Below, in pieces: positions 877 through 48,272 of a stretch of DNA of 54,586 nucleotides; positions within the stretch are counted from its first letter, which is position 1; each line of letters begins with the position of its first letter. The stretch is taken from positions 1 through 54,586 of IMG/VR virus record IMGVR_UViG_3300006028_000004; one strand, given 5' to 3'. The notes beneath the pieces were generated by a model, which worked only from the letters and a program-made list of their open reading frames with translations, did not search any database and was not told the DNA's origin. The DNA is from a virus. A program made the position numbers and the translations under genes.

Positions 877-3552
877 GTGAACATCGGCGAGATTTTAGTC
901 CGTTTCGGCGCTGAGACCTCCGGCTTTTCCGGCGGCGTCAGTATGCTTATCGGCCTCCTGGGCAAATTCGGCGCGTCACTTGCCCTTATCGGCAAGTCCA
1001 TGAGCCTTATGGATATGTCGCGCTACCTCTCCTCTATCGGCGCGACCAATACGGCCATGCAGGCGTCATCGCAGGCATCAGCGGCCATGAGTGCAGGACT
1101 CAAGGGGGTCGGAGTAGCAGCTCTTGCTGCCGTCGCGGCCCTGGTGATTATCGGCGCAGTGGCTGCCGTCGCTATCGGGGTCATCTCCGTCAAGGCCGCA
1201 GCCGACTTCCAGCAGGGTATGAACCGGCTAGCAACCGGCGCGGGGAATGTCACCGACAACATGAAGACGTTAGGGCAGGGCATCCTTTCCGTCTCGATTG
1301 CAACCGGCACCCTGACGAGCGGGACCAATGGCTTGCTGGCCGCTATGTATTTGATCGATTCCAGCGGGCAACGCGGGGCGCAATCTCTCGATACCCTTAA
1401 GGCGGCGGCGCAAGGAGCAAAGATTGAACAGGCGAACCTGGCCGATGTGACGCAAATCCTGACCACGCTACAAACCGACTTTGGGCTGCATACCTACACC
1501 GCTACTCAGTACATGAATGGACTCGTCGCCGCCGTCTCCCACGGCAAAATTACCCTGGAAGCGCTCTCCACGGCTATGTCACCTATCCTCCCCAATGCGA
1601 AAGAACTGGGCATCCATTTCGCCGACGTCGCTGCCGCCATGTCAGATATGACCAACCAGGGCATCCCGGCGGATCAGGCTGCCACTTCGCTGAGATTTGT
1701 GATGCAGAGCATGATCCTGCCGACGCATGCGTCGGCAGCGGCCATGAAGCAATGGGGGCTAGATACAGGCAAGGTGGCATCTGAGATGAAGGTTTCGTTG
1801 CCGGGCGCTATCCAGATGTACATTGATGCGGCCAAACGCGCAGGACCAGAAGGCAGTCAGCCCTTCATTGATGCCCTGGCAGGCATGATGGGCGGCGGGC
1901 AGCGGGCGGCGAAAGCCCTGTTTTCATTGAGTCAATCGATGGGTACCTGGAAATCAGATATCGCGGCAGTCAATACAGCGCTAGGACAAAACAGCCGTGA
2001 TGTCATGGGTTGGGAGACTGTCCAGGGCAGTTTCAATATCAAGTTAGGGCAAGCGCACGCGGCCCTCGATGCGCTTTTTATCGTCATCGGTACGCGCCTG
2101 CTGCCCGTCTTAACCCAAATCGTGGGGCAAATCACGCCCATTATCCAGAAGTTTGCCGATTGGGTGACGCACACCCACGATATCGACAATGCCATCAAGG
2201 CCGTCACGCCCTATTTCAATGCCATGTTCGATATCATCAAAGCGGCATTACCTGTCGTCATCGGCTTGTTCCTGAAATTTGTACACATTTTGGGACAAGT
2301 CATCACCTGGATTGGGCAGAATAAGGCGGTGCTGGAAGCGCTGATGACCATTATGAAGGCGCTGGGCATCATTATTGTTGGGGTTGTCGCGGCAGGTCTC
2401 CTTTTCCTGGCCGTCGCTTTCGTGGCGCTCGGCGTGGTCATTTTCGGGATCATCGGCGTGGTCATGACCCTTATCTCCATCTGGAAGATGCTGGTGGCCG
2501 CCGCCGGGTGGGTATCAGGCGCCTGGCATAGCGTCATCGGCTGGTTAGGTGGCGCGTGGCACTCTCTGGTGGCTATAGCAACCTCAGCCTTCAATGGGAT
2601 GAAGAATGCCATCGTCTCAGCGGTCAACGCCACGGTAAGTTGGATAACCTCAGCCTTCAATGGGGTCATCACCTGGCTGGTCAACGCCTGGCATAGTTGC
2701 GTACAGGCTGTCGTCGCCGCTTTCGCCTGGCTGTATAACCACAACTATTACTTCAAGCAATTGATCGACACCATCCGTAACGTGGTGTCGGGCGGGATTG
2801 CCTGGCTCACCACGGCCTGGGCAAATTCTGTCAAGTGGATTGGGGAGAAATGGGCGCTGCTCAAGGGACTGGCACAATCGGCCTGGGATTTAGTTGTGGG
2901 CGTCTTCAATAGCGTGTGGGGCACAATTTCGGGTATTCTCTCATCATTGTGGGCAAGTATTAGCGGCTGGTGGACGGGAACGGCCATACCTCAGATGAAA
3001 TCCAAGGCGACTTCCGCCTGGCAGGGCGTCTCCCAGGTCTTTAGTAGTGCCTGGGGGACGTACATTTCTGGGCCGCTGAACTCACTTGGAGGTCTGATTA
3101 ACGGTTTCTTCAGTAATCTAGCCGGGCAAATGGTGCAGCTTGGGCGTAATCTTATTCAGGGGCTCGTCGATGGCATCAATTCCATGCTCGGGGTCGTTTC
3201 TGGGGCTGCTTCCAACGTGGCAAGCACGATCACCAGCATCCTCGGTTTCCACTCGCCGCCGCCACAAGGGCCTGCCGCCGATGCTGACACGTGGATGCCC
3301 AACATGGTCAACCTACTGGCCAAAGGCATGACCGCCGGTGTGCCCTCAGTCACCAGGGCGGCTGTGCAGCTCGCGCAACCCATCCAGGGCAATCTCTCAG
3401 CTAGCGGAACAAGAAGCGCGACACCCGGCAGTAGTTCCTCCACCCGCCCCATCATCGTGCAATTCGGCAATGCCGAGTACCGGGGACTCATCCAGAATCT
3501 GGGGCATGACCTGCAGGGTACCATCGTCATTCAGAAGGGGGGCTTGCGCTAA
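877..3552 (+). CDS. Tail tape measure protein
   Basis: An 891-residue protein that sets tail length and is injected or positioned inside the tail tube. The start is GTG at 877, chosen for the strong AAAGGAGG site just upstream; it opens MNIGEILVRFG. Residues about 110-390 look like the TP901-type tape measure core (ATGAGNVTDN, then helical repeats such as NQGIPADQAATSLR). Residues about 470-560 hold long hydrophobic stretches, and 560-720 hold Trp-rich AW..SV.GW repeats. From the usual 1.5 angstrom per residue the tail would be roughly 130 nm. It lies just behind the chaperone pair and overlaps the next gene by one base. Confidence 0.93.
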   Translation: MNIGEILVRFGAETSGFSGGVSMLIGLLGKFGASLALIGKSMSLMDMSRYLSSIGATNTAMQASSQASAAMSAGLKGVGVAALAAVAALVIIGAVAAVAIGVISVKAAADFQQGMNRLATGAGNVTDNMKTLGQGILSVSIATGTLTSGTNGLLAAMYLIDSSGQRGAQSLDTLKAAAQGAKIEQANLADVTQILTTLQTDFGLHTYTATQYMNGLVAAVSHGKITLEALSTAMSPILPNAKELGIHFADVAAAMSDMTNQGIPADQAATSLRFVMQSMILPTHASAAAMKQWGLDTGKVASEMKVSLPGAIQMYIDAAKRAGPEGSQPFIDALAGMMGGGQRAAKALFSLSQSMGTWKSDIAAVNTALGQNSRDVMGWETVQGSFNIKLGQAHAALDALFIVIGTRLLPVLTQIVGQITPIIQKFADWVTHTHDIDNAIKAVTPYFNAMFDIIKAALPVVIGLFLKFVHILGQVITWIGQNKAVLEALMTIMKALGIIIVGVVAAGLLFLAVAFVALGVVIFGIIGVVMTLISIWKMLVAAAGWVSGAWHSVIGWLGGAWHSLVAIATSAFNGMKNAIVSAVNATVSWITSAFNGVITWLVNAWHSCVQAVVAAFAWLYNHNYYFKQLIDTIRNVVSGGIAWLTTAWANSVKWIGEKWALLKGLAQSAWDLVVGVFNSVWGTISGILSSLWASISGWWTGTAIPQMKSKATSAWQGVSQVFSSAWGTYISGPLNSLGGLINGFFSNLAGQMVQLGRNLIQGLVDGINSMLGVVSGAASNVASTITSILGFHSPPPQGPAADADTWMPNMVNLLAKGMTAGVPSVTRAAVQLAQPIQGNLSASGTRSATPGSSSSTRPIIVQFGNAEYRGLIQNLGHDLQGTIVIQKGGLR

Positions 3553-14379: not shown

Positions 14380-14408
14380 TTGCTATCTTCAGCAAAGTGT
14401 GCTATAAT
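14380..14408 (+). promoter_or_regulatory. Promoter of the HNH homing endonuclease
   Basis: TTGCTA (14380-14385), a 17-bp spacer and a perfect TATAAT (14403-14408), with ATAGGAGG just before the ATG at 14431. An independent promoter is expected for a homing gene dropped into a late operon. Confidence 0.65.
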
Positions 14409-14430
14409 ACCCATAGGAGGTATTATAGTC

Positions 14431-15228
14431 ATGACAGTAAGACAGTTTACGCAAGAAGAAAAGGAAGACATTGTAAAGCGTTATCAGGCAGGCGAGTCAC
14501 TTGCTCAGATCGGGAAATCGTATGAAGCAAAGTACGAAACGATAGGGAAGTACCTTACAAAGTGGGGTATAGCCATTCAAACACCGATCAAACGAAAAGT
14601 GAACCTTGCCGGGGAAGCTGACATTTGCCTGAGATATGCTCAGGGAGAAAGCGTGGCTCTGCTGGCAAAGGAATTTGATATGGCAAAATCTACGATAAGA
14701 GATATCGTCCTATCAAATGGAGGGGAAATCAATCCGAGAGGACAGCAGTATAGGAGGTTTTCTCCTGAGCAACTAGAGCAGATCAGGCAAATGACCGCGC
14801 AAGGTGTAAGTCAGTACGCGATTGGACAGGCGTTAGGTGTGCATCAGATCATTATCAGTCGGGTGATGACTGAGAACCATATCACCCCTGCAAGACGTGG
14901 CGTACTTCGTGGTGAAAAGCATGGATCATGGAAAGGTGGAAGACATATTAATCAAGGTGGCTATGTTGAAATCTTGCTTGACTCATCAGACCCTATGGCA
15001 TCAATGTGTAACCGAACGGGCTACGTGGCTGAACATCGCTTAGTTCTAGCAAGAAAGCTTGGCAGGCCACTAGCGAGAAATGAAACTGTCCATCATATCA
15101 ACGGTGATAAGTTAGACAACCGGCCAGAGAACCTACAGTTACGGCAGGGGCGACACGGCACTGGTACCGTCTATTGCTGTGCTGACTGTGGTTCAAGAAA
15201 CATCGTCCAGTGTGAAATAGACGGTTAA
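14431..15228 (+). CDS. HNH homing endonuclease with HTH domains
   Basis: A 265-residue protein starting at ATG 14431 behind a strong Shine-Dalgarno. Residues about 1-150 hold two or three helix-turn-helix units of the resolvase/MarR type (ESLAQIGKSYEAKYETIGKYL, ESVALLAKEFDMAKSTIRDI, GVSQYAIGQALGVHQIIISRV). A GEKHGSWKGG strand follows, then the HNH core (VAEHRLVLARKLGRPL, ETVHHINGDKLDNRPENLQL). The C-terminal CCADCG hints at a zinc knuckle. Free-standing phage homing endonucleases of this type cut DNA lacking the insertion. It is more A+T-rich than its neighbours, in line with a recent arrival. Confidence 0.9.
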   Translation: MTVRQFTQEEKEDIVKRYQAGESLAQIGKSYEAKYETIGKYLTKWGIAIQTPIKRKVNLAGEADICLRYAQGESVALLAKEFDMAKSTIRDIVLSNGGEINPRGQQYRRFSPEQLEQIRQMTAQGVSQYAIGQALGVHQIIISRVMTENHITPARRGVLRGEKHGSWKGGRHINQGGYVEILLDSSDPMASMCNRTGYVAEHRLVLARKLGRPLARNETVHHINGDKLDNRPENLQLRQGRHGTGTVYCCADCGSRNIVQCEIDG

Positions 15229-15948: not shown

Positions 15949-16173
15949 ATGATTATCAATTTACTGGAATGGGCATTAAAGGTCGTTGTGGCGGCCTTTG
16001 TCCTCTTACTCTTATCGTTGTTATTGTGGTTCGTGTTTGACGCGGTAATGCGTTTGTTTAAAGGACCGGAACTGGATTTCTTCAGCGTGGCGCTCCTGGC
16101 TTTTGTCGCCGCCGTCGCTATCGGCAACTGGGGCATAAGCTTCTTGCATACGCGAACGGCTCCTACGCCATGA
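15949..16173 (+). CDS. Small two-TM membrane protein (holin candidate)
   Basis: A 74-residue protein with AAAGGAAG upstream and two hydrophobic helices (residues 8-32, VVVAAFVLLLLSLLLWFVF; 45-62, FFSVALLAFVAAVAIGNW). Its stop overlaps the lysin start by 4 bases, an arrangement that suggests translational coupling and a holin or antiholin role. The second candidate is at 17914. Confidence 0.65.
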   Translation: MIINLLEWALKVVVAAFVLLLLSLLLWFVFDAVMRLFKGPELDFFSVALLAFVAAVAIGNWGISFLHTRTAPTP

Positions 16174-17876
16174 GTACAGGTGATTATGCCAAAGCGGTAT
16201 GGCTACCCTCGCCCAATTTCTGGCCGGGCGGTGATGGCAACCAATTGATCGTGGTGCACGCGACAGCATCAGGCGGGCCGCAGACGGGCTACCAGTTGGC
16301 AACGAGCGCGGAATTTACCGATGGGCAATCGAACTCGACTCACTACATCAATGACGTGGATGGGACGGTCTATCAGATTGTACGTGAAGCCGATAGCGCG
16401 TGGGGCAACTGCTGCGTTGATGGTAACTCACCTTTCAGCGCAACCTATAACTGGAACAAGAACACGATCAGTATAGAGAACGTCAAGCACTCGAGCGACA
16501 ATAGCGAGCCACTCACCGCCGCTCAGTATCAATCCCTGCTCGCCCTGGTACGCGATATTGCGAGCCGCAATGCTATCCCGCTCGTGCATGGCAGCCCGAC
16601 CATGAAGGGGATCATTTTTCACCATGATCTGATGCCTATCATCAAGGGAAGATGTCCTGGCACGTTCCCCTATGGGACATTCTTTCAGGATTTACAAGGA
16701 GGAGGTACGCAGACGCTACAGACTACACACGATGGGATGGTAATGAACATCCCCAAGTCTAATCAACTGACAACGGGCGAGAGCTTTGTCATGTGTACGG
16801 TGTGGGCCCCTGCCGCTATCAACTTTTGCGCGCCGCCGGGGCAAAACGCACTGGCCGATGGCTCAGCCCAGGAAAATCCGATAGACGATCTGGCCGAACT
16901 GTGGTGGAGTACCCATAGCGGCGAGATGCCTGCTGACGTGGAATGGTGCTTAACTCAGGCGACCTATCCGGGTTCCACGCACCGCAACCTCTACTACCGG
17001 GTTATCACGCCGACACGGGCCAATATCACGCGAGCACTGCAAGCAGGCTACATCGTGCTGGCGACGGCCAACGAAGCCAATGTACTGGACGTGATGAACG
17101 GTGACCGGCAAGCCTATGGCTGGTCACTGGGTAATCACTTCTTCCCTCTGGCGGGCTTATCTGGCAGCAACTATATCGCCGCTGACCAACTTATCGGGCG
17201 GCAAGGCTACTGGCCGCCTGTGTATGACGCCGGGGCGCTGAACCCGTCCTATGCCGTGGTGGTGCAGGTGATCGGGCCAGATCCGGCGCATCCCTGGCTG
17301 GCTCCTATCCCACCAGGCGACCCGTCTACGTGGCCGTCTGGGTATAACGCGCAATTATTCGCAGGAGGAACAACGATTATGGGAATACCTACCGGCTGGA
17401 AGCCCGGCCCCAATAACAGTCTCATCGCGCCTAACCTTGTCCCGGTAACTGGTGGCAATTCCATCTGGGTGCAAGGGCATTCCTGGGATTCCAATAACCT
17501 ACCCATCAAGGCTGAGATGGGGCGCACCCTGGTCGAGCAAAGTAACCCGGCCCTTGGATCCGGTACCTGGCAGAACTTCAGAGGTACGCCAGGTCAACCG
17601 GCAGCGCTCGCCTGGCGTAAGGACACCAACCAGGTCTACCTGCCGTGGGCAGGACAAGAACTTGATTGGTACATGAACGCCTATGAGGCAGCGCAAGCAC
17701 AAATCGCGGTTCTCAAGGCGCAAGTAGCGGCCCTGCAAGCAGCAGGTACAGGCGCGGCTATCCCCCAGGCGGTACTCGATGATATCAAGAGCCTGGCCGC
17801 ACTCATTCCACCCGCCGCACTCACGCTAGAAACGCTCGTGAAGGATGCGGGATTACCACCACTCCCTACTCCATAA
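16170..17876 (+). CDS. Endolysin: N-acetylmuramoyl-L-alanine amidase plus second domain
   Basis: A 568-residue protein. Residues 1-175 form an Amidase_2-type domain that cleaves the MurNAc-L-Ala bond of peptidoglycan. Likely zinc ligands are His30 (VVHAT), His151 or His152 (FHHDLMP) and Cys162 (GRCPG); Glu103 (SIENV) fits the catalytic site. Residues about 190-410 form a second domain with FVMCTVWAPAAINFC and GNHFFPLAGLSGSNYIAADQ, which resembles the Cys/His layout of C39-like peptidases; this part is inference. The C-terminus has a coiled coil (AQAQIAVLKAQVAALQAAG). Flanked by holin candidates on both sides. Confidence 0.85.
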   Translation: MSTGDYAKAVWLPSPNFWPGGDGNQLIVVHATASGGPQTGYQLATSAEFTDGQSNSTHYINDVDGTVYQIVREADSAWGNCCVDGNSPFSATYNWNKNTISIENVKHSSDNSEPLTAAQYQSLLALVRDIASRNAIPLVHGSPTMKGIIFHHDLMPIIKGRCPGTFPYGTFFQDLQGGGTQTLQTTHDGMVMNIPKSNQLTTGESFVMCTVWAPAAINFCAPPGQNALADGSAQENPIDDLAELWWSTHSGEMPADVEWCLTQATYPGSTHRNLYYRVITPTRANITRALQAGYIVLATANEANVLDVMNGDRQAYGWSLGNHFFPLAGLSGSNYIAADQLIGRQGYWPPVYDAGALNPSYAVVVQVIGPDPAHPWLAPIPPGDPSTWPSGYNAQLFAGGTTIMGIPTGWKPGPNNSLIAPNLVPVTGGNSIWVQGHSWDSNNLPIKAEMGRTLVEQSNPALGSGTWQNFRGTPGQPAALAWRKDTNQVYLPWAGQELDWYMNAYEAAQAQIAVLKAQVAALQAAGTGAAIPQAVLDDIKSLAALIPPAALTLETLVKDAGLPPLPTP

Positions 17877-17913
17877 ATAGGGAGAAATACCCAAAACCGG
17901 AAGAAAGGTTTTT

Positions 17914-18168
17914 ATGAATACATCCATGCAAAGTATGTTCGTTCAGATGGGCTTTGAGATATTCGTGCTGCTCCTGGTAGTAGCCAGCGTCTATCTCAAG
18001 CTTATCCCTAACGATCTGCTTATCCTGGCCCTCGGTATCGTCATTCGCGGGGCGCTCTCTTATGTACCGACCGTGACGGCCATCACGCAAAATACCGCCG
18101 CCACGAAGGAGAATACCCTCGTCATGACTCAGACTCCCCAGGCAAGCGTACCTGAAAAGAGCGTGTAA
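17914..18168 (+). CDS. Holin-like membrane protein, 84 aa
   Basis: ATG after AAGAAAGG. Two hydrophobic helices (FEIFVLLLVVASVYLKLI and DLLILALGIVIRGALSYV) and a polar tail (QTPQASVPEKSV). Size and layout match small phage holins. It lies 37 bases after the endolysin and is probably the membrane pore that times lysis. Confidence 0.72.
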   Translation: MNTSMQSMFVQMGFEIFVLLLVVASVYLKLIPNDLLILALGIVIRGALSYVPTVTAITQNTAATKENTLVMTQTPQASVPEKSV

Positions 18169-18206
18169 CGCCTGAAAATCATCCCCAAAACATCTTGACA
18201 TAACTA

Positions 18207-18247
18207 TTGACAGAGGCATATGAACATGATAACATGCCGTCGGCATG
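18207..18247 (+). promoter_or_regulatory. Promoter and palindromic operator of the accessory block
   Basis: TTGACA (18207-18212), a 17-bp spacer and TAACAT (18230-18235). A perfect palindrome, CATGCCG-T-CGGCATG (18233-18247), overlaps the -10 and start region. The next gene encodes a ribbon-helix-helix protein, so autoregulation through this palindrome is likely. A near match to the recurrent motif (CTTGACATAA, 18194-18203) lies just upstream. Confidence 0.7.
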
Positions 18248-18281
18248 ATGTCAGAATGACGACACGGGGGAACCAGCACGA

Positions 18282-18452
18282 TTGAGAAAAGTAACACTAC
18301 GCCTGCACGATGACCTCTATACAGAGGTGCAGGCGCAAGCGAAAGAGCACCATCGTTCGATGAATGGGGAAATCACGGTGGTGCTTGCCGCTTATGTCGC
18401 ACGAGAACAGATGAAAAGTAAGAAGAAGAAAGGAGGAAAAGCAGATGATTGA
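18282..18452 (+). CDS. Arc/MetJ-type ribbon-helix-helix regulator, 56 aa
   Basis: Starts TTG at 18282 with a weak GGGGG upstream. The protein opens with a beta strand (KVTLRLHDDLY) followed by two helices (TEVQAQAKEHHRSMNGEI and VVLAAYVAREQ), the pattern of Arc-family DNA-binding dimers, and ends in a Lys-rich tail. It is the first gene behind a promoter with a 15-bp palindrome. It probably represses the 18.2-22.3 kb accessory block. Confidence 0.75.
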   Translation: MRKVTLRLHDDLYTEVQAQAKEHHRSMNGEITVVLAAYVAREQMKSKKKKGGKADD

Positions 18453-18744
18453 CCCCACGTGGCTTATCATAGGCTTTTTCTTTGTGACGCTCCTATTCCT
18501 GGTAGCGGTAGGCGCGTTCATGTATGACATGAAAAGTACCTTGAAAGGAGTCCATAATGAACTCAAAAAGCAAAACAGGTCTCTACGGCGCGGCGAGATT
18601 TCCGTTATCACCGGCGACCTGTCTACCGATCCTGTGGCTACTGCCATTGCTGTTGATCCTGATGCTACTGTTAGCGTTCCTGCCATCAGGCGCGAAAGTG
18701 CACGCCGCCGCAGCCGTGAATTGCAATCTGAGCGTCCCGGCTAA
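18445..18744 (+). CDS. Single-TM protein overlapping the next gene, 99 aa
   Basis: ATG at 18445 behind a perfect AAAGGAGG, overlapping the regulator stop by 8 bases. One N-terminal transmembrane helix (PTWLIIGFFFVTLLFLVAVGAFMYDM), then a basic, probably cytoplasmic tail (LRRGEIS, AIRRESARRRSRE). The last 188 bases overlap the next gene in another frame. The N-terminal 40 residues look real. The tail may be constrained mainly by the overlapping gene. Confidence 0.6.
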   Translation: MIDPTWLIIGFFFVTLLFLVAVGAFMYDMKSTLKGVHNELKKQNRSLRRGEISVITGDLSTDPVATAIAVDPDATVSVPAIRRESARRRSRELQSERPG

Positions 18745-19702
18745 CCCGCTCTCCGCTGCAGGTCTAGCTACGCCGTGGGTAACCTCCTGCGATCAGGGCA
18801 ATGTCAACGCGGCGGTCTTCGTGCAGGCGGCTATTTTCTCGCCCTCCCAAAAGACGCTTGCCATCTATCCCCCGCTGGTCATCAACCAGGGAACCACGCC
18901 TGCTATCGCGCCAGTAGTGCCGACACTCCCGGCCGATGCCATTGTGGCCCTCTTTGGCGGCGGCAATGATGACGTAACCACGCTTACGGGTCCAGGAGCA
19001 AGCGCGTGTGTCAATGGGGTCGAGCATCCCTTTGGACAGGTGTTCTACTGCAATGGGCAGAACTTCTTCGCCGCGGTCAATGCCGCGCATCTGTCCATCC
19101 CGCCTATCGGAACGGAGATGAATGGGCAAGCCTGCCCTACCGTGCGCAGTTTTGAGATTGTGGATCAGGACCAGAGCGATAATGTGCAGACGACCTATCT
19201 GGTCACCACCAGTGGGCAAACAGCACAGAACACGGCAGTCAACCGGGCAGCGCTCGGCGTAACGGCGGTGGCAAAAAACCCCAGTGATAATAGGCTGCTC
19301 ACCAACTTCGTGGATCCGGCGATAGGCTGCCATCCCTGGTTACTGCCTGACCTCTCAGACAATGGCAATCTCGTGCCAAGCCAGGCAGCAGATGAGTTGC
19401 AGGCGGCAGCCTATCAAGCGGCGCCTATCGCCCTTATCCCGGCGGGTGACCCGATGGCCGGGCCGAACAGTTTGGCAATGGTCAATGCCTACCGTGTGAA
19501 TGTGAACCAACACAGTATCAAACTGCTGGCACAGGCTAATACCACGGCCTATTGCGGCAATATCCGCACGTATGCGGCAGCGTTTATCAACGGCCACCAG
19601 GCAGCTTTCGCCGCGTCGGGGAGTCCCGCACCGGGCGTTAATTTGTTTGATTTCATGGTCGGGCGACTGGCCGCGACCAATCAGATTTTGGGTTGTAAGT
19701 AA
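18557..19702 (+). CDS. Secreted protein, 381 aa
   Basis: ATG after TTGAAAGGAG. Long basic N-region, then a hydrophobic signal helix (LPILWLLPLLLILMLLLAFL) and an Ala-rich cleavage-like region (AKVHAAAAVN). The mature part has several Cys residues (CNLSV, SCDQG, CVNGVEH, FYCNGQ, CPTVRS, GCHPW, YCGNIR, GCK), suggesting disulfides in an exported protein. No enzyme motif or family recognised. It lies in the accessory block after the lysis genes. Confidence 0.75.
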   Translation: MNSKSKTGLYGAARFPLSPATCLPILWLLPLLLILMLLLAFLPSGAKVHAAAAVNCNLSVPANPLSAAGLATPWVTSCDQGNVNAAVFVQAAIFSPSQKTLAIYPPLVINQGTTPAIAPVVPTLPADAIVALFGGGNDDVTTLTGPGASACVNGVEHPFGQVFYCNGQNFFAAVNAAHLSIPPIGTEMNGQACPTVRSFEIVDQDQSDNVQTTYLVTTSGQTAQNTAVNRAALGVTAVAKNPSDNRLLTNFVDPAIGCHPWLLPDLSDNGNLVPSQAADELQAAAYQAAPIALIPAGDPMAGPNSLAMVNAYRVNVNQHSIKLLAQANTTAYCGNIRTYAAAFINGHQAAFAASGSPAPGVNLFDFMVGRLAATNQILGCK

Positions 19703-19719
19703 GAAAGGAGAACCTTCTT

Positions 19720-20205
19720 ATGCGTCGTCTTATCCTGTGTTTCACTTTTGCTCTCCTCGCGTGTGTGGCTCTCGGGGGAACGGTCCTCGCCGAAAGTCCG
19801 CACTTTGTCGTGACACCTACCTGTACAAAGTCACTCTCGACAGGTCTGACCTGTAGCGGCAAGGCGGCGGGCCTGGGCAACGAACCGGCCTTTGTTTTCC
19901 TGACTGCCGATAGCGTCTCGGCAACCTACATCTGCGTCAATAACGGGGGCAATACCGCGCCTGGGCAGGGCATCGTCACGCAAAACGTCGTGGGACCAGT
20001 CCAGCAGATTGCACCCCATGACGGCCAGATCACCTTTGCAGCAACCCTACCGCCGCCTCCAACCCCAAACTCGGTAGTCGTGTGCCCCAACGGCAACTGG
20101 ACGGTACGTCTCACATCGCTCACCTACACGAACGTTGTACTGCATATCCAGAATGCGGCGGGGACTGATCTCTTGACCTTCGCCTTCGGCACGCTTGACC
20201 CATGA
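19720..20205 (+). CDS. Secreted protein, 161 aa
   Basis: ATG after AAAGGAGAA. Clear signal peptide (MRRLILCFTFALLACVALGGTVLAES, cleavage likely after VLA). The mature part is beta-rich with paired Cys residues (PTCTKS, LTCSGK, YICVNN, VVCPNG), like a small Ig-like or carbohydrate-binding exported domain. Family not recognised. Confidence 0.75.
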   Translation: MRRLILCFTFALLACVALGGTVLAESPHFVVTPTCTKSLSTGLTCSGKAAGLGNEPAFVFLTADSVSATYICVNNGGNTAPGQGIVTQNVVGPVQQIAPHDGQITFAATLPPPPTPNSVVVCPNGNWTVRLTSLTYTNVVLHIQNAAGTDLLTFAFGTLDP

Positions 20206-20233
20206 TAGCTGAGTCGGAAGGAAGGAGACGATC

Positions 20234-20350
20234 ATGATATGGGTGTATCTCGCCCTGGCAGGCATAGGGATAGGCGTTTTGATCTATCTTGTGCGTATCG
20301 GCCGTATCGTCCTTGAGTATATGCGTCTTGATGACGGGCCTGAGGACTAG
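20234..20350 (+). CDS. Tiny membrane protein, 38 aa
   Basis: ATG after GGAAGGAG. One transmembrane helix (VYLALAGIGIGVLIYLV) followed by a charged tail ending LDDGPED. Its stop codon directly abuts the ATG of the next tiny membrane gene. Function unknown. Confidence 0.6.
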   Translation: MIWVYLALAGIGIGVLIYLVRIGRIVLEYMRLDDGPED

Positions 20351-20458
20351 ATGAACAGGCACGAGCGTCTGCTGTGGGTAGCGGTAGGTTTATACCTGCT
20401 GCTGCTCTCGCTCGTGCTGGCCTGTATCATTATTCTGAACATCTTAGCCCATCAATAA
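20351..20458 (+). CDS. Tiny membrane protein, 35 aa
   Basis: ATG immediately follows the TAG of the preceding gene. One hydrophobic helix (LLWVAVGLYLLLLSLVLAC, continuing IIILNILAH). The tandem pair of single-helix peptides could be an accessory holin or an envelope modifier. Function unknown. Confidence 0.55.
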   Translation: MNRHERLLWVAVGLYLLLLSLVLACIIILNILAHQ

Positions 20459-20469
20459 AAGGAAGAGAA

Positions 20470-20829
20470 ATGTCAGCAGAACAATTAGCCCAAAAGTGTC
20501 ATGCCGCACTGAACAGGTTAACGAAATGGCGGAGTGTCTTTACCGGGTGGCAACTTGGTACTCGCGCTCAAGGCGACCCTGAATCTGATGCTGTCCGTGA
20601 CCATCGAGAAATAACTATTTTGTTGCGCTGTGAAATGACCGTGGTAAGTAAACTCCTTATCGAGAAAGGCGTCTTTACCCTGGAAGAATGGCAAAAGGCC
20701 ATGATCGAAGAGTCCGGGTTACTCGAAATGGACTATGAAAAGAAGTTCCCCGGCTTTCGCGCAACAGACATCGGCCTGGATGTGGATGTGCAGAAAGCGC
20801 ACGAAACCACAAAGCACTGGAAACCTTGA
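20470..20829 (+). CDS. Hypothetical soluble protein, 119 aa
   Basis: Starts at ATG 20470 after GGAAGAG. Mostly helical and charged (MSAEQLAQKCHAALNRLTKW, EKGVFTLEEWQKAMIEESGL). No family recognised. It precedes the protease gene by 12 bases and is probably co-translated with it. Confidence 0.65.
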   Translation: MSAEQLAQKCHAALNRLTKWRSVFTGWQLGTRAQGDPESDAVRDHREITILLRCEMTVVSKLLIEKGVFTLEEWQKAMIEESGLLEMDYEKKFPGFRATDIGLDVDVQKAHETTKHWKP

Positions 20830-20841
20830 AAGGAGAAAACG

Positions 20842-21594
20842 ATGGATAGAAGTCGGAGCCTTGGGTGGCATAGAGACCTGCCCGACAAACGCGATCTTTT
20901 GTTGCGCGTACCGCCGGTGCACTTACCCCCGTCGGTTGATTTACGCAGCAAGCAATCTCCTATCCGCGACCAGGGCGATCTTGGGAGCTGTACCTCATTT
21001 GCCATCTGTGCGCTCCTGGAATACCAGCATATGCAGCAAAAGCCAGGTACATCCTTTGATTTCTCAGAGTTGTTTGTCTACTACCTGGAACGGGCCAGGG
21101 AGCATACCCTTGACTATGACTCGGGAGCCTACATCAGAGACGGCATGAAGGCGGTGCACGCAACGGGTGTCTGTACCGAAACAGATTGGCCCTATGATAC
21201 CAACAAGTTCACGATGCACCCCTCCAAGAAAGCGTATATGGACGCGAAGTTGGATAAGACGGTCACCTATATGCGCGTGCCGCAGAACGCGGTTAGTCTG
21301 AAGTCGGTACTCGTGCACAACTACTGCTTCGTCTTCGGCTTCAGCGTCTACGATAGCTTCATGACACAACAAGTCGCCAATACGGGGATTGTGCCCATGC
21401 CTGATTTCACGAGTGAGAAGGTAGTAGGCGGCCACGCTGTTGAGTGCGTGGGCTACGATGATACCAAGGGCGTGTATCTCTGTAGGAACAGTTGGGGCAC
21501 ATCCTGGGGGCAATCAGGGTACTTTTCGATACCAGATGCTTATGTGGAGGACAGTCAGTTGTGTGATGACTTTTGGACGGTAGAGCTTGTTTGA
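20842..21594 (+). CDS. Papain-like (C1A) cysteine protease
   Basis: A 250-residue protein; ATG after AAAGGAG. The oxyanion Gln44 and catalytic Cys50 lie in the motif IRDQGDLGSCTSFA, His198 in GGHAVECVGYD and Asn216 in RNSWGTSWG, the complete papain-type active site. There is no signal peptide and only a short N-terminal region (about 30 residues) before the catalytic domain, so no long propeptide. It may act in the host cytoplasm or be released at lysis. Such proteases are uncommon in phages. The target is unknown. Confidence 0.88.
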   Translation: MDRSRSLGWHRDLPDKRDLLLRVPPVHLPPSVDLRSKQSPIRDQGDLGSCTSFAICALLEYQHMQQKPGTSFDFSELFVYYLERAREHTLDYDSGAYIRDGMKAVHATGVCTETDWPYDTNKFTMHPSKKAYMDAKLDKTVTYMRVPQNAVSLKSVLVHNYCFVFGFSVYDSFMTQQVANTGIVPMPDFTSEKVVGGHAVECVGYDDTKGVYLCRNSWGTSWGQSGYFSIPDAYVEDSQLCDDFWTVELV

Positions 21595-21766
21595 ACAACA
21601 AGCGAAGTGCTACATCTGTCAGAAAGAGGCGCTCTTCGTGTGTGGATGCTGCCTGCGTCCCGTATGCGAGAAGCACAGCTTTGTGACGCATACGGATTGG
21701 CATTGCTGCGATGACTCGCGCTGTATCGCCTTTGCCCCAAAGAAAGGAATGGAAGCCGTTGGATAA
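21587..21766 (+). CDS. Small Cys/His-rich zinc-binding protein, 59 aa
   Basis: TTG at 21587 overlaps the protease stop by 8 bases. Cys/His spacing (CYICQ, CGCCLRPVCEKH, THTDWHCCDDSRC) suggests a B-box or treble-clef zinc fold. No strong Shine-Dalgarno; translational coupling is assumed. It overlaps the start of the following nuclease gene. Confidence 0.5.
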   Translation: MFEQQAKCYICQKEALFVCGCCLRPVCEKHSFVTHTDWHCCDDSRCIAFAPKKGMEAVG

Positions 21767-22316
21767 GATAAAGATCATTTCTTTCGTAGTCGGCCTGCTG
21801 CTTGGCATACCGCTCGGCTATCTTGCTGTGAGTTGCTCGCCTCCTGGTACGCTGCTGAGTACGCAGCCCGCGAAGACGCCTACTATAAAAACAACAGGGT
21901 GCCGGGTACGCGGTCCTCTCCCCGATGCCCTTTGTACGCCGGGAGCTATTTTCCTCCCGGCGGTAACACAAAAGCAAGTGTGTACACCGGGGTACGCGGG
22001 CAGCATGCGCAACGTCCCGACGAGCGAGAAGGCGGCGGTATATAAGGAGTATGGGGTGATCTATCATGCAACGGGAGCCTATGAAGTAGATCATTTAGTG
22101 AGTCTGGAGTTAGGCGGGAGCAATACTATCGCTAATCTGTGGCCGGAGGCAGCCACGCCAACGCCGGGATATCACCAGAAGGACGCGCTTGAGGACTACT
22201 TGCACGCCCAGGTGTGCCAGGGGATGCTCACGCTTGGGTGTGCACAGCGGGTGATTGCGGCGAACTGGCTGGTGGTGTATATGGAGATGGTACAGAAGAA
22301 AGCTATTGCCTGTTGA
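21759..22316 (+). CDS. Membrane-anchored or secreted HNH-like nuclease
   Basis: A 185-residue protein from TTG 21759 (AAAGGAATGG upstream). An in-frame ATG at 21711 would add 16 residues but has no Shine-Dalgarno. An N-terminal hydrophobic helix (IISFVVGLLLGIPLGYLAV) precedes several Cys residues. The core EVDHLVSLELGGSN with NLWPEA and GYHQKDALEDYLHAQVC matches exported HNH-type nucleases whose DH pair forms the active site. It may degrade DNA outside the cell or in the periplasmic space. Last gene of the rightward block. Confidence 0.78.
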   Translation: MDKIKIISFVVGLLLGIPLGYLAVSCSPPGTLLSTQPAKTPTIKTTGCRVRGPLPDALCTPGAIFLPAVTQKQVCTPGYAGSMRNVPTSEKAAVYKEYGVIYHATGAYEVDHLVSLELGGSNTIANLWPEAATPTPGYHQKDALEDYLHAQVCQGMLTLGCAQRVIAANWLVVYMEMVQKKAIAC

Positions 22317-22325
22317 TAAGAAGAT

Positions 22326-22355
22326 GCCCTCCCCGACTCGTGGGCCAGGGAGGGC
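22326..22355. terminator. Hairpin between convergent transcription units
   Basis: GCCCTCCC (22326-22333) pairs with GGGAGGGC (22348-22355). It lies between the ends of convergent genes (22316 and 22369). There is no clear U-run, so termination is inferred from position. Confidence 0.5.
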
Positions 22356-23549: not shown

Positions 23550-23592
23550 ATTTGCGACGAGTTTGGGGAGTGCGGCAAAACTCGCGTGGTGT

Positions 23593-23657
23593 GGTATACT
23601 ATTCTCGCAACTCTCCCGTCTTTTTTAGCAAAAAGGGAGTTGCGAGAATAGTATACC
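23593..23657. repeat. 21-bp perfect inverted repeat upstream of the CRISPR-like array
   Basis: The left arm 23593-23613 (GGTATACTATTCTCGCAACTC) is the exact reverse complement of the right arm 23637-23657. The centre is T-rich then A-rich (TTTTTTAGCAAAAA), so the whole unit can form a long hairpin. Each arm carries TATACT, and the left arm has an extended -10 (TGGTATACT). The 12-bp piece TGTGGTATACTA recurs after the array at 23886-23897. Confidence 0.8.
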
Positions 23658-23702
23658 TATCAAGGTGGATTGCACCCGCTCTACAGGCTATTCCGTGATG
23701 CG

Positions 23703-23884
23703 GTTGCAAGGGTATCGACCCGTTTGAGGGTACTGAAAGCCATTTATGGAAGCGCTTATCTTTCCCCCCTGTATTGTTGCAAGGGTATCGACCCGTTTGA
23801 GGGTACTGAAAGGCCAGTTTCCGCGAGCAAGAGCAGATGCATCTCGTCAGTTGCAGGGACTTCGATCCGTCGAGGATACTAAAG
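23703..23884 (+). CRISPR. CRISPR-like mini-array, 3 repeats and 2 spacers
   Basis: Two identical 37-bp repeats (23703-23739 and 23776-23812; begin GTTGCAAGGG, end ACTGAAAG) and a degenerate 35-bp third copy (23850-23884). Spacers are 36 bp (23740-23775) and 37 bp (23813-23849) and unrelated to each other. The last repeat is the degenerate one, as at the trailer end of real arrays, so transcription is probably rightward. The internal stem ACCC/GGGT becomes ATCC/GGAT in the third repeat, a compensated pair change. The ACTGAAAG end resembles the 8-nt handle of type I and III crRNAs. No cas genes are present in the genome. Confidence 0.72.
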
Positions 23885-24025
23885 GTGTGGTATACTACTC
23901 GTGTCAAGGCGTTACAGGTAAGGTAAGCGGAAATCACACAACGACGACGCGATACACATCACCCCCCAAAGCCGGGTCACCACCGGTAGCTTCACTTTTA
24001 GCATAACAAGCAGGCGCGCTTGATG

Positions 24026-24134: not shown

Positions 24135-24353
24135 TCAAGGCAGGACAATCTTGAGCATCGTCGAGCGCTTCACGCGATAGGCAGTGCGCTTGCCCATGTG
24201 CGGTAAATGGATGGCTTCGAGTGCCCCGCTTTTGATCCACCTCCGTACTGTGGTGTCATCCACGCGCAGCCAGTCAGCTACTTCGCTCACGGTCAAGAGG
24301 TCATCAGGCGCTTCTTTATGCAAAGATGGGGGATGAGATGAAACAGATACCAT
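24135..24353 (-). CDS. MerR/excisionase-type HTH protein, 72 aa
   Basis: ATG at 24353 after AAAGGAAAA. Contains the motif DDLLTVSEVADWLRVDDTTVRRWIKSGALEAIHL, a typical HTH_17 (excisionase-like) domain. In phages such proteins act as recombination directionality factors or transcription regulators. No integrase was found, so a regulator is more likely. Confidence 0.8.
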   Translation of the reverse strand: MVSVSSHPPSLHKEAPDDLLTVSEVADWLRVDDTTVRRWIKSGALEAIHLPHMGKRTAYRVKRSTMLKIVLP

Positions 24354-24420
24354 ACGTGTTTTCCTTTCAAATGTGACTTCAATCAATCAAATACGTGTTC
24401 TTACATAGTATACATGTCTA

Positions 24421-27906: not shown

Positions 27907-28443
27907 TCACACGCGAATATCCCAGGTTGCGACTCCTGATTGAAACAAATGTGCAGTAAAGGCCAGGCGGTAGTCGTGGATACTCCCGGGCACTTCATAG
28001 ACTAGTGAGCCTTTGAGCGGGTCACCAGGTTGCACCTTGCCGTCAAGCATTGCCCCCGCTTCGTCATCGTAGGAGTTGATGTACTTCTGGCCTGTCGTGT
28101 CGGTCAATTGGAATTGGGCGATACTACTGATATTCTGCTCTTGGGCAGAAATATTCTTGACCGTGATCTGGAAGATCAGATACACGTCGCCCGCGTGCTG
28201 GGGCATACTGTACTGCCCGTGCGGGCTCGTCTTCGCACTGACGATGGTGATTTGCCAGGTATCACCCACAGTGACGAGCTGCCCTACGGCGAAGTGTTGG
28301 GCCGGTGCTGACGTGGGTGTTACTTTGGGAGTAGTCGCTATCGTCGTGGGTGATGACGTGGCACTGCCCTGGTTCGCCGCGGGAGAACCGCAGGCAGCCA
28401 GGACGAGCGTGCAGATGAGAATGAGAATGATTTTCGTTTTCAT
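27907..28443 (-). CDS. DUF4352-type lipoprotein, 178 aa
   Basis: Signal peptide with lipobox (ILILICTLVLAAC, Cys18), a Ser/Thr/Pro linker (residues 20-50), then an immunoglobulin-like domain (VGDTWQITIVSAKTS, VYLIFQITVKNIS, FQLTDTTGQKY, GSLVYEVP) typical of DUF4352. It would sit on the outer face of the membrane. In phages, such early-expressed surface lipoproteins are often superinfection-exclusion or lysogenic-conversion genes. That role is inference. Confidence 0.85.
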   Translation of the reverse strand: MKTKIILILICTLVLAACGSPAANQGSATSSPTTIATTPKVTPTSAPAQHFAVGQLVTVGDTWQITIVSAKTSPHGQYSMPQHAGDVYLIFQITVKNISAQEQNISSIAQFQLTDTTGQKYINSYDDEAGAMLDGKVQPGDPLKGSLVYEVPGSIHDYRLAFTAHLFQSGVATWDIRV

Positions 28444-31210: not shown

Positions 31211-32628
31211 AGTGCCACCCCTACCTGCGCTTGAGAGCGTTCAAAGGCGGCTTTGCGCTCGGCGTTGAGTTGCAGGATCTTCGCCGTGTAGGGGTCCATG
31301 ACCATCGTGGGCTTGCCCGGCTCTGGCATCTGTCCGGCAGGGGCATCACGTGCGGGCCAGCGCCCTAACTCTTTCAAGAATTCACGAGCATTTTGTGCTT
31401 CGTCAAGAATAACGCGCCCACCCGCCCGATGTCTCTCAGATGGTTTCTTATAGGGGAAACGTTCAGCCAGCACGAAGTTATCAATCATCTTGATCTGCAT
31501 ATCAGTGTAGGTATCAACGAGAAACGCAATGCATTCCGACTCATTGATACGACCGCCCTTCAGGGGAAGGAGTTCCCCGCCGCGTCTTTGATTAAAGTAC
31601 GCTTGCCACTTTCGCCGCCGCTCCTGTATCTCAGGTGAACATTCTTTAATACTGAGACGTTTTTTATTTTTCTCTTTCCCATCCGTCTTATAGGGTGAGG
31701 GTGCATTTTTACCACCCTCTGACGATAAAGGCGAAACAAGTAGCGTGGGTATCAATGCGACCTGTGTAGGCGTTATCCTCGTAGACTCAACTTGTAGCAT
31801 CACTGGCGTAGGTTCAGGTATCACTCGTGAAGACTCCTCTGGCCTGCTCTCGCTTTTCGTAAGTGGGGAAGGGTCCAGAGGAGTCTTTCTATTCTCTTCA
31901 AGATTTTCCCCAAAAGAAGAAAGACGAGAGAGAAAAGCATTACCCTCGTCACTTTCTCCGTCAGGAGAAATGACAAAGGAAGATTCCTTTCTATTCTGTA
32001 AAGTTCCTTTAATTCTATCGGCTTCAAAAACAGGTGTAACTCCTTGCTCTCGTGTACCTTCAGCCTCTTTGGTGGTTTCCAAATTTGAGAGTTGGGATTT
32101 CAATTTTGTGATCCTGGTTTCCAAATTTGAGAGGGTGGTTTCCAAATTTGAGAGTTGGGATTTCAATTTTGTCGCCTTTTCTTGACGTTCCTGTGCTTGC
32201 GCCTCTGCTGATGGTTCTTTTTTAGGAGCGGCTTTTCCACGGGGTTTCTTGGGAAAAGCTACCGGAGGATTGGCAATGGTCTCATTAATGATCTGGATAG
32301 AAACAGCATAGCGGTGTCTATATCCGTCAGCTTTGATATACCCCCAGGCGGCAAGCTGCTTTATGTAGGTGATGAGCGAGTTTTGACTGATCGTCACTTT
32401 TGCCAGAATATCTTTGTGCTCACACTCTACGGTGATAGCAGGAACTTCTGTCCAATCAATACCCTCGTTCTTTGCTACCCAACTTGCTCTATAGACGAGG
32501 AAGCCCAAGACTTTGCCTATCTCGACATGACCACGACAGACAAGGGTAAAGGACTTATGTTCAATATCGCCAATGTCACCAGGAGGAACGAGCCAGGGCG
32601 TGCGCGGTGGGCGTGCTGTTTGCGTCAT
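31207..32628 (-). CDS. Replication initiator-like protein with coiled-coil repeats
   Basis: About 473 residues; ATG at 32628, or GTG at 32631 overlapping the upstream stop. The N-terminal 110 residues carry a winged-helix pattern (DILAKVTISQNSLITYIKQLAAWGYIK) like phage O/DnaD-type initiators. Residues about 150-195 are heptad repeats (KLKSQLSNLETT). The C-terminal 130 residues (SIKECSPEIQERRRKWQAYFNQRR, then FVLAERFPYKKP) may contact other replication proteins. It sits upstream of the helicase loader, as in lambda O-P. Assignment by pattern and context. Confidence 0.65.
   Translation of the reverse strand: MTQTARPPRTPWLVPPGDIGDIEHKSFTLVCRGHVEIGKVLGFLVYRASWVAKNEGIDWTEVPAITVECEHKDILAKVTISQNSLITYIKQLAAWGYIKADGYRHRYAVSIQIINETIANPPVAFPKKPRGKAAPKKEPSAEAQAQERQEKATKLKSQLSNLETTLSNLETRITKLKSQLSNLETTKEAEGTREQGVTPVFEADRIKGTLQNRKESSFVISPDGESDEGNAFLSRLSSFGENLEENRKTPLDPSPLTKSESRPEESSRVIPEPTPVMLQVESTRITPTQVALIPTLLVSPLSSEGGKNAPSPYKTDGKEKNKKRLSIKECSPEIQERRRKWQAYFNQRRGGELLPLKGGRINESECIAFLVDTYTDMQIKMIDNFVLAERFPYKKPSERHRAGGRVILDEAQNAREFLKELGRWPARDAPAGQMPEPGKPTMVMDPYTAKILQLNAERKAAFERSQAQVGVAL
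32073..32172. repeat. Intragenic 21-bp-period repeats (iteron candidates)
   Basis: TGGTTTCCAAATTTGAGAG occurs at 32073-32091, 32115-32133 and 32136-32154. Copies 1 and 3 extend to identical 37-bp units (to 32109 and 32172). Spacings are 42 and 21 bp. They encode heptads of a coiled coil. Their A+T richness and place inside an initiator-like gene also fit an origin of replication. Confidence 0.75.
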
Positions 32629-33314
32629 CACATCACCTTCTCCCCTGCTTCATCTTCACTCATACCCTCTTCTGCCATCAGCCTTTTCCATTCTCTGACC
32701 GCCTCACGTATATCTTCGTCATCGTCATCAATTTGTGGGATTTCACAGAGCCTTAGCGCAACCTCTGCTAATTTTACCCAGTACTTATCAGCATTTATAC
32801 TCCACTTGCTACAGGCAGAGTGGTACAAATCAAGAAAAACCTCTCCATACCGTAGCCCAAAATGGGTGATACCGAGCGTATTGATAGCAAGAAGTTGTCT
32901 TTGTTCTTCCTTGGGCAGAGTTATAAATTCCCATTGAAAAGCGGAAAGATACTCCCCCTTTCTTTGCGGATTGCCCTGGATGTTCTGTAATGGGTGCCCT
33001 TTTTTAAGGAGGTCTTGTATCCAGTAGGCTTCATACTTGCGAGCGAGCCGTATACCGTGAATACGTGGTTCAAGTGGGATAGTGATAGGGGGCATATCCT
33101 TCTCGATCATTTCACGGATCCAGGCTTTTTGTGAGAAGTGCTGTTTGCGGCGTTGCTCTATATCAGTAGTAATGCCGACATAGATGGCCTGCAGGTCTAT
33201 GGAATGAACTATGCCATAGACCGAATACTCTTCCTCTTGGGATTGAGGACATGGTGTCTCTAGCCCGATTGCTGTCCTCAACGCAGCGCCAGGCGTGGGA
33301 AGGTAGGTACCCAC
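32628..33314 (-). CDS. GIY-YIG domain protein, 228 aa
   Basis: GTG start at 33314 (AAAGGG upstream). The N-terminal catalytic module YSVYGIVHSIDLQAIYVGITTD, followed by IEQRRKQHF and a Glu-containing EAYWIQDLLKKG, matches GIY-YIG nucleases. The C-terminal 100 residues (SAFQWEFITLPKEEQRQLLA, KLAEVALRLCEIPQIDDDDED) differ from ordinary homing enzymes. It may be a homing endonuclease or a domesticated repair or replication nuclease. It is in line with its neighbours rather than inserted in reverse. Confidence 0.82.
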   Translation of the reverse strand: MGTYLPTPGAALRTAIGLETPCPQSQEEEYSVYGIVHSIDLQAIYVGITTDIEQRRKQHFSQKAWIREMIEKDMPPITIPLEPRIHGIRLARKYEAYWIQDLLKKGHPLQNIQGNPQRKGEYLSAFQWEFITLPKEEQRQLLAINTLGITHFGLRYGEVFLDLYHSACSKWSINADKYWVKLAEVALRLCEIPQIDDDDEDIREAVREWKRLMAEEGMSEDEAGEKVM

Positions 33315-37695: not shown

Positions 37696-38000
37696 TAGTC
37701 TCCCTCACTTTCTTCTGTTCTCAGTTCAAACTTGGCACAGGCGGGCCATCTCACGCGATGGTCACCGCCGGGATACACCGTCCCTGGATACTTCCCACCT
37801 TTCGTTCTCCACTCTCGTTTTGAACACTTGTACCACGTGGCCGATTGCTGGAAGCCGTGCAGGTACGTGCAATCGCGGCAGATAGCACCCGGCGGGCCTT
37901 TCCCATAGGCGTCTATACAGGGGTTGACCGAGTGCTCGATGGGCGTCTCAGGTGTGGGAAGGACGACGGCTTGCTCCCACTCGTCAGCAAAGAGGTTCAT
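37695..38000 (-). CDS. Cys-rich phage protein, 101 aa
   Basis: The pattern GPPGAICRDCTYLHGFQQSA, then WYKCSKREW, GGDHRVRWPACAKFE is a recurring small zinc-binding phage type with four Cys. It overlaps the sigma-like gene by 4 bases. Role unknown. Confidence 0.68.
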   Translation of the reverse strand: MNLFADEWEQAVVLPTPETPIEHSVNPCIDAYGKGPPGAICRDCTYLHGFQQSATWYKCSKREWRTKGGKYPGTVYPGGDHRVRWPACAKFELRTEESEGD

Positions 38001-38575
38001 GACACCGCCTCCTCGCGCTGTGCTCGCAATTTCTCGCGGGTATGGTGTAGTACATCCCCGAGCTTATGTCGCCCGCACCCGGTGGCGTGCATAATCTCCT
38101 GGTACGAGCACCCGGCAGCCGCGAGCAGAAAGATTTGCCTCGTCCCCGGCTTCATCGCGGCCAAGATAGTGCTAATCTCCTCGCGGTCAGCCACCTTCGC
38201 GGAGAAATCACCCTCCGCCTCAATTTCTTCGTAGGTGCCCCACTCAGCATCGAGCGAGGCAAACAAGGGGCGCGGCACCTCCTGCCTGTTGTGCTGCATG
38301 ATATACGTTTTGCGCAAGAAGTCGTACACCGCGTGCGTGGCGATGGTCGAGAGCCATTGATAGGTGATGCGCTGGCCGTCACCGTCCGTCAAGCCGACCC
38401 ACACTTTCAGCCATGTCGTTTGTTCCAAATCTTCTAGCATCTCATAGTTTGCCCCGTGCAGGAGGAAGCGTATCCGTTTCTTAATTGCCGTCTTATATTC
38501 TGCATACAGCGCATCAAAACGTTCCTCCCGGCTCATCTCTCGCGCTTCGTTCTTTGTATCTAGTAGGGTCGCCAC
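37997..38575 (-). CDS. ECF-like RNA polymerase sigma factor, 192 aa
   Basis: Region 2 (residues about 20-90: YAEYKTAIKKRIRFLLHGAN, MLEDLEQTTWLKVWVGLTDG, WLSTIATHAVYDFLRK) and region 4 (about 137-185: MKPGTRQIFLLAAAGCSYQE, IMHATGCGRHKLGDVLHHTR) match two-domain sigma factors. There is no region 3. It could direct host RNA polymerase to a phage promoter class. The likely targets are middle or late genes on the + strand. Confidence 0.82.
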   Translation of the reverse strand: MATLLDTKNEAREMSREERFDALYAEYKTAIKKRIRFLLHGANYEMLEDLEQTTWLKVWVGLTDGDGQRITYQWLSTIATHAVYDFLRKTYIMQHNRQEVPRPLFASLDAEWGTYEEIEAEGDFSAKVADREEISTILAAMKPGTRQIFLLAAAGCSYQEIMHATGCGRHKLGDVLHHTREKLRAQREEAVS

Positions 38576-48165: not shown

Positions 48166-48272
48166 TGTCTGAACCTCCAATTCAGGCCACGCTCTCGGAT
48201 GTTTCCAGCATCGCGGGAGCATCATTCTGCTTTATTATACTATTCTTTTTGTCCTTCGAAAGAGGGACAGTC

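Follow-up and report, generated by a model that had tools for sequence, protein, structure and literature searches.

An Arc-led accessory gene block behind the lysis genes of an uncultivated phage encodes a probable exported HNH nuclease that may act on incoming DNA

We analyzed a stretch of viral DNA of 54,586 nucleotides (nt), IMG/VR record IMGVR_UViG_3300006028_000004 (hereafter, the window), with the focus on a block of genes at positions 18,207 to 22,316, behind the lysis genes. We read the block as an accessory hotspot where the late operon ends, its contents sharing a theme, and not as a fixed operon, because pairs of its genes recur in differing combinations elsewhere and the whole set was seen in no other contig. 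As a tentative explanation, we favor a block of morons under the control of an Arc-like regulator, with a nuclease of the HNH type on the outer face of the membrane that would cut incoming DNA, either from a second phage or free. We infer that keeping out incoming DNA or competing phages is the most likely role of this HNH protein.

A probably exported HNH family with intact catalytic residues

The HNH gene closes the block and offers two start codons. TTG 21759 is preceded by AAAGGAA and opens a signal sequence ending in a lipobox-like LAVSC, whereas ATG 21711 lacks such a ribosome-binding site; the TTG start is therefore preferred, and the product is probably a lipoprotein. Relatives of this protein are encoded by 366 of 398 pattern-bearing IMG/VR stretches, of which the best 80 were returned for detailed work (as were the best 80 of 478 for the protease described below). 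Gene and signal calls in relatives relied on simple custom scripts. By a simple rule, an N-terminal signal was present in 76 of 81 viral HNH loci and in 55 of the 58 non-redundant ones, compared with a background of 83 of 578 open reading frames (ORFs) in the same loci (14%); a lipobox accompanied the signal in 11 and 10 loci of the two sets, respectively. Family alignments, one of which (A5) used 39 of the 81 loci, revealed conserved D-H, ELGG, N-LW and K-D residues, and E109, D111, H112 and N126, invariant across 40 HNH sequences, leave the catalytic residues intact. Moreover, the window gene and its nearest relative, in locus L064, differ by proportions of 0.24 at nonsynonymous sites (pN) and 0.72 at synonymous sites (pS, near saturation), changes that fit purifying selection.

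The window protein carries no Pfam, NCBIfam or PHROG name: no curated HNH family matched it, with PF06032 below the cut-off at 0.047 and zero NCBIfam matches. Its structure model reached a predicted local distance difference test score (pLDDT) of 85, and structural matches were weak (Foldseek best E 0.43; VIA best Z 4.6, root-mean-square deviation 3.5, 84 aligned residues), although the upper VIA rows were HNH or related nucleases. Beyond viral contigs, exported relatives occur on 46 plasmid records, and relatives were found in 13 of 19 of the Streptosporangiaceae genomes with homologues of the secreted 381-residue protein described below (12 strong matches, one weak). Among 50,697 phage records, none was found with either the window protein or the L108 protein as probe. 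Set against the 366 IMG/VR stretches, this absence points to a widespread phage function that has been missed, because its carriers are uncultivated.

Twelve HNH neighborhoods were inspected by eye, and 114 plus-strand neighbors of at least 80 residues around the 58 non-redundant loci were scanned (A6). Ribonucleotide reductase matches among them numbered five for one family and four for the small subunit, and 6 of the 58 loci had a lysin-like ORF that preceded the HNH gene within 5 kb on the same strand. In large phages, exported HNH relatives lie beside or near ribonucleotide reductase genes in L082, L085, L112, L122, L086 and L075.

Parts of the block recur in other combinations

A preliminary description of the window, made from its letters alone, had treated the block as one unit and proposed looking for the same gene set in other phages; what we found were separate pieces in other combinations only. 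In L064, a holin gene (product 67% identical to the window copy) directly precedes the HNH gene. L066 and L067/L068 carry HNH and papain-like (C1A) protease genes behind an endolysin, in reversed order relative to the window. L062 encodes an HNH lipoprotein and a relative of the 381-residue protein 4.6 kb apart, and in some relatives the 381-residue gene occurs alone. In L065, a Cro/CI-type gene is followed by an Arc-like gene that has a TTGACA-17-TATAAT promoter to itself; next come genes for a Bro-N protein, a lipoprotein and a further lipoprotein of the HNH type, which shares 62% identity with that of the window, with an integrase further on. This arrangement has the setting of an immunity region.

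An operator-like promoter and an Arc-like regulator

The preliminary description had also placed a promoter with a 15-bp palindrome and an Arc-like regulator ahead of the listed genes, and this held up: the regulator scored 24.9 bits against PF03869, above the curated cut-off of 20.4. A single promoter-like site is weak evidence, given that a 12-kb scan returned 16 such sites compared with 7.7 in shuffles. By chance, the 113-nt gap should hold about 0.015 palindromes with perfect 7-bp arms; window-wide, 13 such palindromes compare with 2-14 in 20 Markov copies, so that what singles this palindrome out is its location over the -10 element. These features support a predicted regulator and operator-like promoter of the block's own. 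No terminator-like site was found on the plus strand between the lysis genes and the block, and late read-through into the block is thus also likely. Elsewhere in the window, a sigma-70-type factor (37997-38575, minus strand) could drive phage promoters.

A predicted secreted protein shared with soil bacteria and other phages

The first relative of the 381-residue protein came from a degenerate-pattern scan of genome_contigs, in a Streptosporangiaceae metagenome-assembled genome (46% identity over residues 54-380). Of 297 Streptosporangiaceae genomes, 20 had relatives (19 strong matches and one at 8e-4); of 296 Actinomycetota genomes, 1 did, namely the starting genome. Single-protein scans of viral_contigs with the protease, the 381-residue protein, the HNH protein and the 19720 product gave no relative, and alignments were needed: scanning with an alignment of 22 homologues (A1) yielded 11 viral loci, the best 59% identical. 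Eight cysteines (C56, C78, C151, C165, C193, C258, C333 and C380) are kept in an alignment of 23 proteins, which fits a disulfide-bonded exported protein; distant viral relatives (A4) retain fewer of them.

In L053/L054 and L055, the neighbors of the gene are tail genes homologous to those of the window; relatives are also encoded on high-GC contigs (L056-L061 and L063), which need not be phage sequences. The L063 relative is fused to an NlpC/P60 domain, and the L055 relative has a membrane helix and coil, its tail resembling the 18445 product (score 56, compared with at most 49 in 300 shuffles), hints that the 381-residue protein may be tied to the cell wall and membrane. Its model is fairly confident (pLDDT 80, predicted template modeling score 0.78), but fold searches gave nothing convincing (best E 4.7 in PDB and 1.2 in BFVD; one VIA row of 158 chains, at Z 2.0). 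By sequence, the protein belongs to a putatively secreted family common to soil Streptosporangiaceae and other phages, and predicted export is well supported for two block proteins, this one and the HNH protein.

How the block might work

In the explanation that we favor, accessory genes would have accumulated at a hotspot that separates the lysis cassette from the convergent early genes. The Arc-like regulator would repress its own promoter through the 15-bp palindrome, and a repressible promoter would allow the block genes to be made apart from the probable late read-through. Two products would matter outside the cytoplasm, the disulfide-rich secreted protein and the HNH lipoprotein, which on the outer face of the membrane would cut DNA entering the cell, whether from a second phage or free. 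The protease would stay inside until lysis and act then, or would act on phage structural proteins.

We lean toward exclusion because the export signal of the HNH family far exceeds its background frequency while the catalytic residues are kept, and because exported relatives sit on plasmids, where a barrier to DNA would make sense. The immunity-region setting of L065, the position of the L064 gene between a holin and a ten-repeat array, and the proximity of the HNH and 381-residue genes in L062 argue in the same direction. Several points weigh against this explanation: the full gene set recurs in none of the contigs seen, the window is without an integrase match, an early gene or a prophage gene would suit exclusion better than a late one does, and the ribonucleotide reductase neighbors (4-5 per subunit family) and lysin-like ORFs allow other roles. 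Should the HNH protein indeed cut DNA on its way in, phages would have in it a new means of competing with one another, and gene uptake would meet a barrier.

The protease and the alternative explanations

The main rival is an extended lysis or egress module, in which the protease and nuclease, at lysis, would break down surface proteins and sticky released DNA and so let virions spread; we regard it as unlikely, and it draws support from the papain-like protease. This enzyme scored 86.7 bits against PF00112 (cut-off 20.7), and Q44, C50, H198 and N216, which we take to be the catalytic Gln, Cys, His and Asn, are invariant in five protease proteins; the closest solved chain is 3ois (1.7e-51), presumably xylellain. 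C1A relatives are encoded by 478 of 586 pattern-bearing IMG/VR stretches. The preliminary description had counted the protease among the exported products, a claim that did not survive: the window protein has no signal, nor does any of 80 viral relatives (0/80), as expected of enzymes released by holins. The gene lies directly behind a lysozyme gene in THSA-485A, near lysin A with two genes between in Mufasa8, and behind a lysin in L148, L163, L066 and L067; in MMB025 it is fused to an endolysin, and in MW202426 the late region around it includes an endolysin gene as well. The lysin-like ORFs upstream of the HNH gene in 6 of 58 loci agree with such a module. On the other side, a nuclease that is exported and anchored in the membrane would do its work ahead of lysis, only 5 of 80 protease loci had a lysin-like ORF within 5 kb by a low-sensitivity search, and the protease is located elsewhere in FLC9, Shaeky and Sycamore.

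By eye, head, tail or lysis genes adjoin the protease in several of 12 loci, and terminase, portal or tail genes do so in L158, L196 and L204; the protease thus looks like a late protein, of lysis or of the virion, rather than an exported one. The latter loci, together with the separate occurrence of block pieces in other phages, suit a mixed bag of read-through late genes of unrelated function and no common purpose, in which the protease, and perhaps other products, would be part of the virion. We consider this rather unlikely, given the block's own promoter and Arc-like regulator, the comparable gene set in L065, likewise headed by an Arc-like gene and including an HNH lipoprotein, and the strong conservation of export signals. 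No block protein matched a PHROG structural family. The proposal that the block changes the host surface or surroundings rather than building the virion accordingly stands in part: its own regulator, its predicted exported products and the lack of structural matches speak for it, whereas the absence of one conserved unit and the unexported protease do not.

A role of the exported HNH protein in nucleotide supply, through breakdown of extracellular DNA, is improbable: ribonucleotide reductase families do appear among the scanned neighbors, but the window has no such neighbor, and ribonucleotide reductase regions also hold homing endonucleases and may be mere insertion hotspots. Phage HNH genes are often homing endonucleases, and homing endonuclease families occur among the HNH neighbors, yet a selfish homing gene whose hydrophobic start is not for export is very improbable in view of the signal conservation across non-redundant loci and of relatives that look exported and are encoded by plasmids and bacterial genomes.

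Gene content, genome and host

All genes listed in the preliminary description are present (Table 1) and open, most with good ribosome-binding sites; the list had missed the gene at 18445-18744, and the start of the HNH gene is corrected to the more likely TTG 21759. The 161-residue 19720 protein had no relatives in Pfam, PHROG, genome or viral_contigs scans, the 119-residue helical protein had none in Pfam, PHROG, NCBIfam or PADLOC, and PADLOC matched 0 of 10 proteins.

Table 1 Features of the block, its surroundings and landmark genes of the window
Feature	Position	Strand	Basis or remark
Promoter-like site TTGACA-17-TAACAT, TG ahead of second hexamer	18207-18235	+	10/12 consensus
Perfect 15-bp palindrome CATGCCGTCGGCATG	18233-18247		overlaps -10 element
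Operator-like dyad, 27 nt, centered on the palindrome	18227-18253		13-nt arms, 85% complementary
Arc-like ribbon-helix-helix regulator, TTG start	18282-18452	+	PF03869 1.8e-5; Arc-like PHROGs
Small membrane protein, helix and coil, overlapping start of 18557 gene	18445-18744	+	translation, ribosome-binding site
Secreted 381-residue protein, eight family-invariant cysteines	18557-19702	+	signal sequence, homologues 35-59%, model
Secreted 161-residue orphan	19720-20205	+	signal sequence in translation
38-residue membrane protein	20234-20350	+	translation
35-residue membrane protein	20351-20458	+	translation
119-residue helical protein	20470-20829	+	without known relatives
Papain-like C1A protease, without export signal	20842-21594	+	PF00112 3.2e-24; 3ois 1.7e-51
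Small Cys/His-rich protein, probably zinc-binding	21587-21766	+	Cys/His pattern; weak PF17772
Exported HNH nuclease, probable lipoprotein	21759-22316	+	family alignments, signal conservation, model; longer alternative start ATG 21711
Terminator-like hairpin, end of convergent early genes	22326-22355	-	
Endolysin, N-acetylmuramoyl-L-alanine amidase (context)	16170-17876	+	PF01510 1.6e-18
Holin-like two-helix membrane protein (context)	17914-18168	+	translation
Mini-CRISPR-like array with preceding hairpin (outside block)	23592-23885	+	repeats 23703-23739, 23776-23812, decayed copy near 23849
Tape measure	877-3552		
Large terminase	43169		
Major head protein	49485		

The window is probably a complete tailed-phage genome, because its ends share a 110-bp repeat. 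Pfam and PHROG scans covered part of its ORFs, and tyrosine or serine recombinase families were not found in the window; a nucleotide search of 16170-22316 against phage records gave zero matches. No host could be assigned by way of the 381-residue and HNH homologues: the 19720 protein and the protease were found in 0 of 19 of the Streptosporangiaceae genomes with 381-residue homologues, large terminase (TerL) matches in 51 of 297 Streptosporangiaceae genomes reached at best 42% identity over most of the length, the 37-nt array repeat was present in 0 of 396 Actinomycetota genomes, and GC content is 72% in L004 compared with 54% in the window.

Other genes in the window include an HNH endonuclease with helix-turn-helix repeats between the tail and lysis genes (14380-15228, plus strand) and two GIY-YIG proteins (32628-33314 and 47536-48225, both minus strand), all likely mobile. 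A phrog_806 lipoprotein distant from the block (27907-28443, minus strand) is 71% identical in L064 (9040-9564), and an excisionase-like HTH_17 protein (24135-24386, minus strand), with 64-74% identity in L065, L066 and L067, is the best-kept marker of the region. A direct repeat of at least 27 nt has copies at 32071 and 32134, spaced 63 nt apart.

A neighboring mini-CRISPR-like array

An array resembling clustered regularly interspaced short palindromic repeats (CRISPR) lies 1.4 kb downstream of the block, with two identical 37-nt repeats, a decayed third and 36-nt spacers. In L064, ten repeats of nearly the same sequence (1064-1909), with 36-37-nt spacers, begin about 110 nt after the HNH gene, and the hairpin region ahead of the array is 75% alike in the two. 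Both arrays show unique spacers of even length between identical repeats. The spacers had no convincing target among the relative loci and the window, Rfam returned nothing for the array, and we noticed no cas gene in the scanned ORFs, which were part of those in the window. A bolder version of the exclusion hypothesis would join the two elements in a two-layer island against other phages, with an Arc-controlled, membrane-anchored surface nuclease and a mini-CRISPR array using host Cas against related phages; the HNH family would then make up a large class of surface nucleases carried by uncultivated phages, unnamed in the literature as far as an open-access search extends. We hold this version to be doubtful.

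Relation to known systems

Arc/Mnt-type regulators with an antirepressor sit in phage immunity regions such as P22 immI. The window shares with these an Arc-family regulator before its own regulated genes, and L065 adds a Bro-N antirepressor-type protein; in the window, by contrast, the regulator is not followed by an antirepressor and heads a set of exported proteins where the late genes end. The protease resembles bacterial papain-like C1A proteases (3ois) in its PF00112 domain, active-site residues and N-terminal G-x-x-x-D-x-x-D-x-R-D motif, and differs in being phage-borne.

The array, outside our main finding, can be likened to virus-borne mini-CRISPR arrays, which one report describes as a form of superinfection exclusion (PMC6858448): both are short repeat arrays with a conserved flank on a virus, the one in the window having one or two spacers and no cas gene noticed in the scanned ORFs. 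Those described there belong to archaeal viruses, and no spacer targets were found here among the relative loci and the window. The closest parallel to the proposed role of the HNH protein comes from exported DNases of Campylobacter jejuni. The host is another one, the window is without an integrase match, and the comparison is by description, not by sequence; nevertheless, as in the window, these are nucleases with signal peptides on phage or prophage-like elements, and, according to the report, the DNases of the integrated elements CJIE1, CJIE2 and CJIE4 block natural transformation when expressed (PMC4372405).

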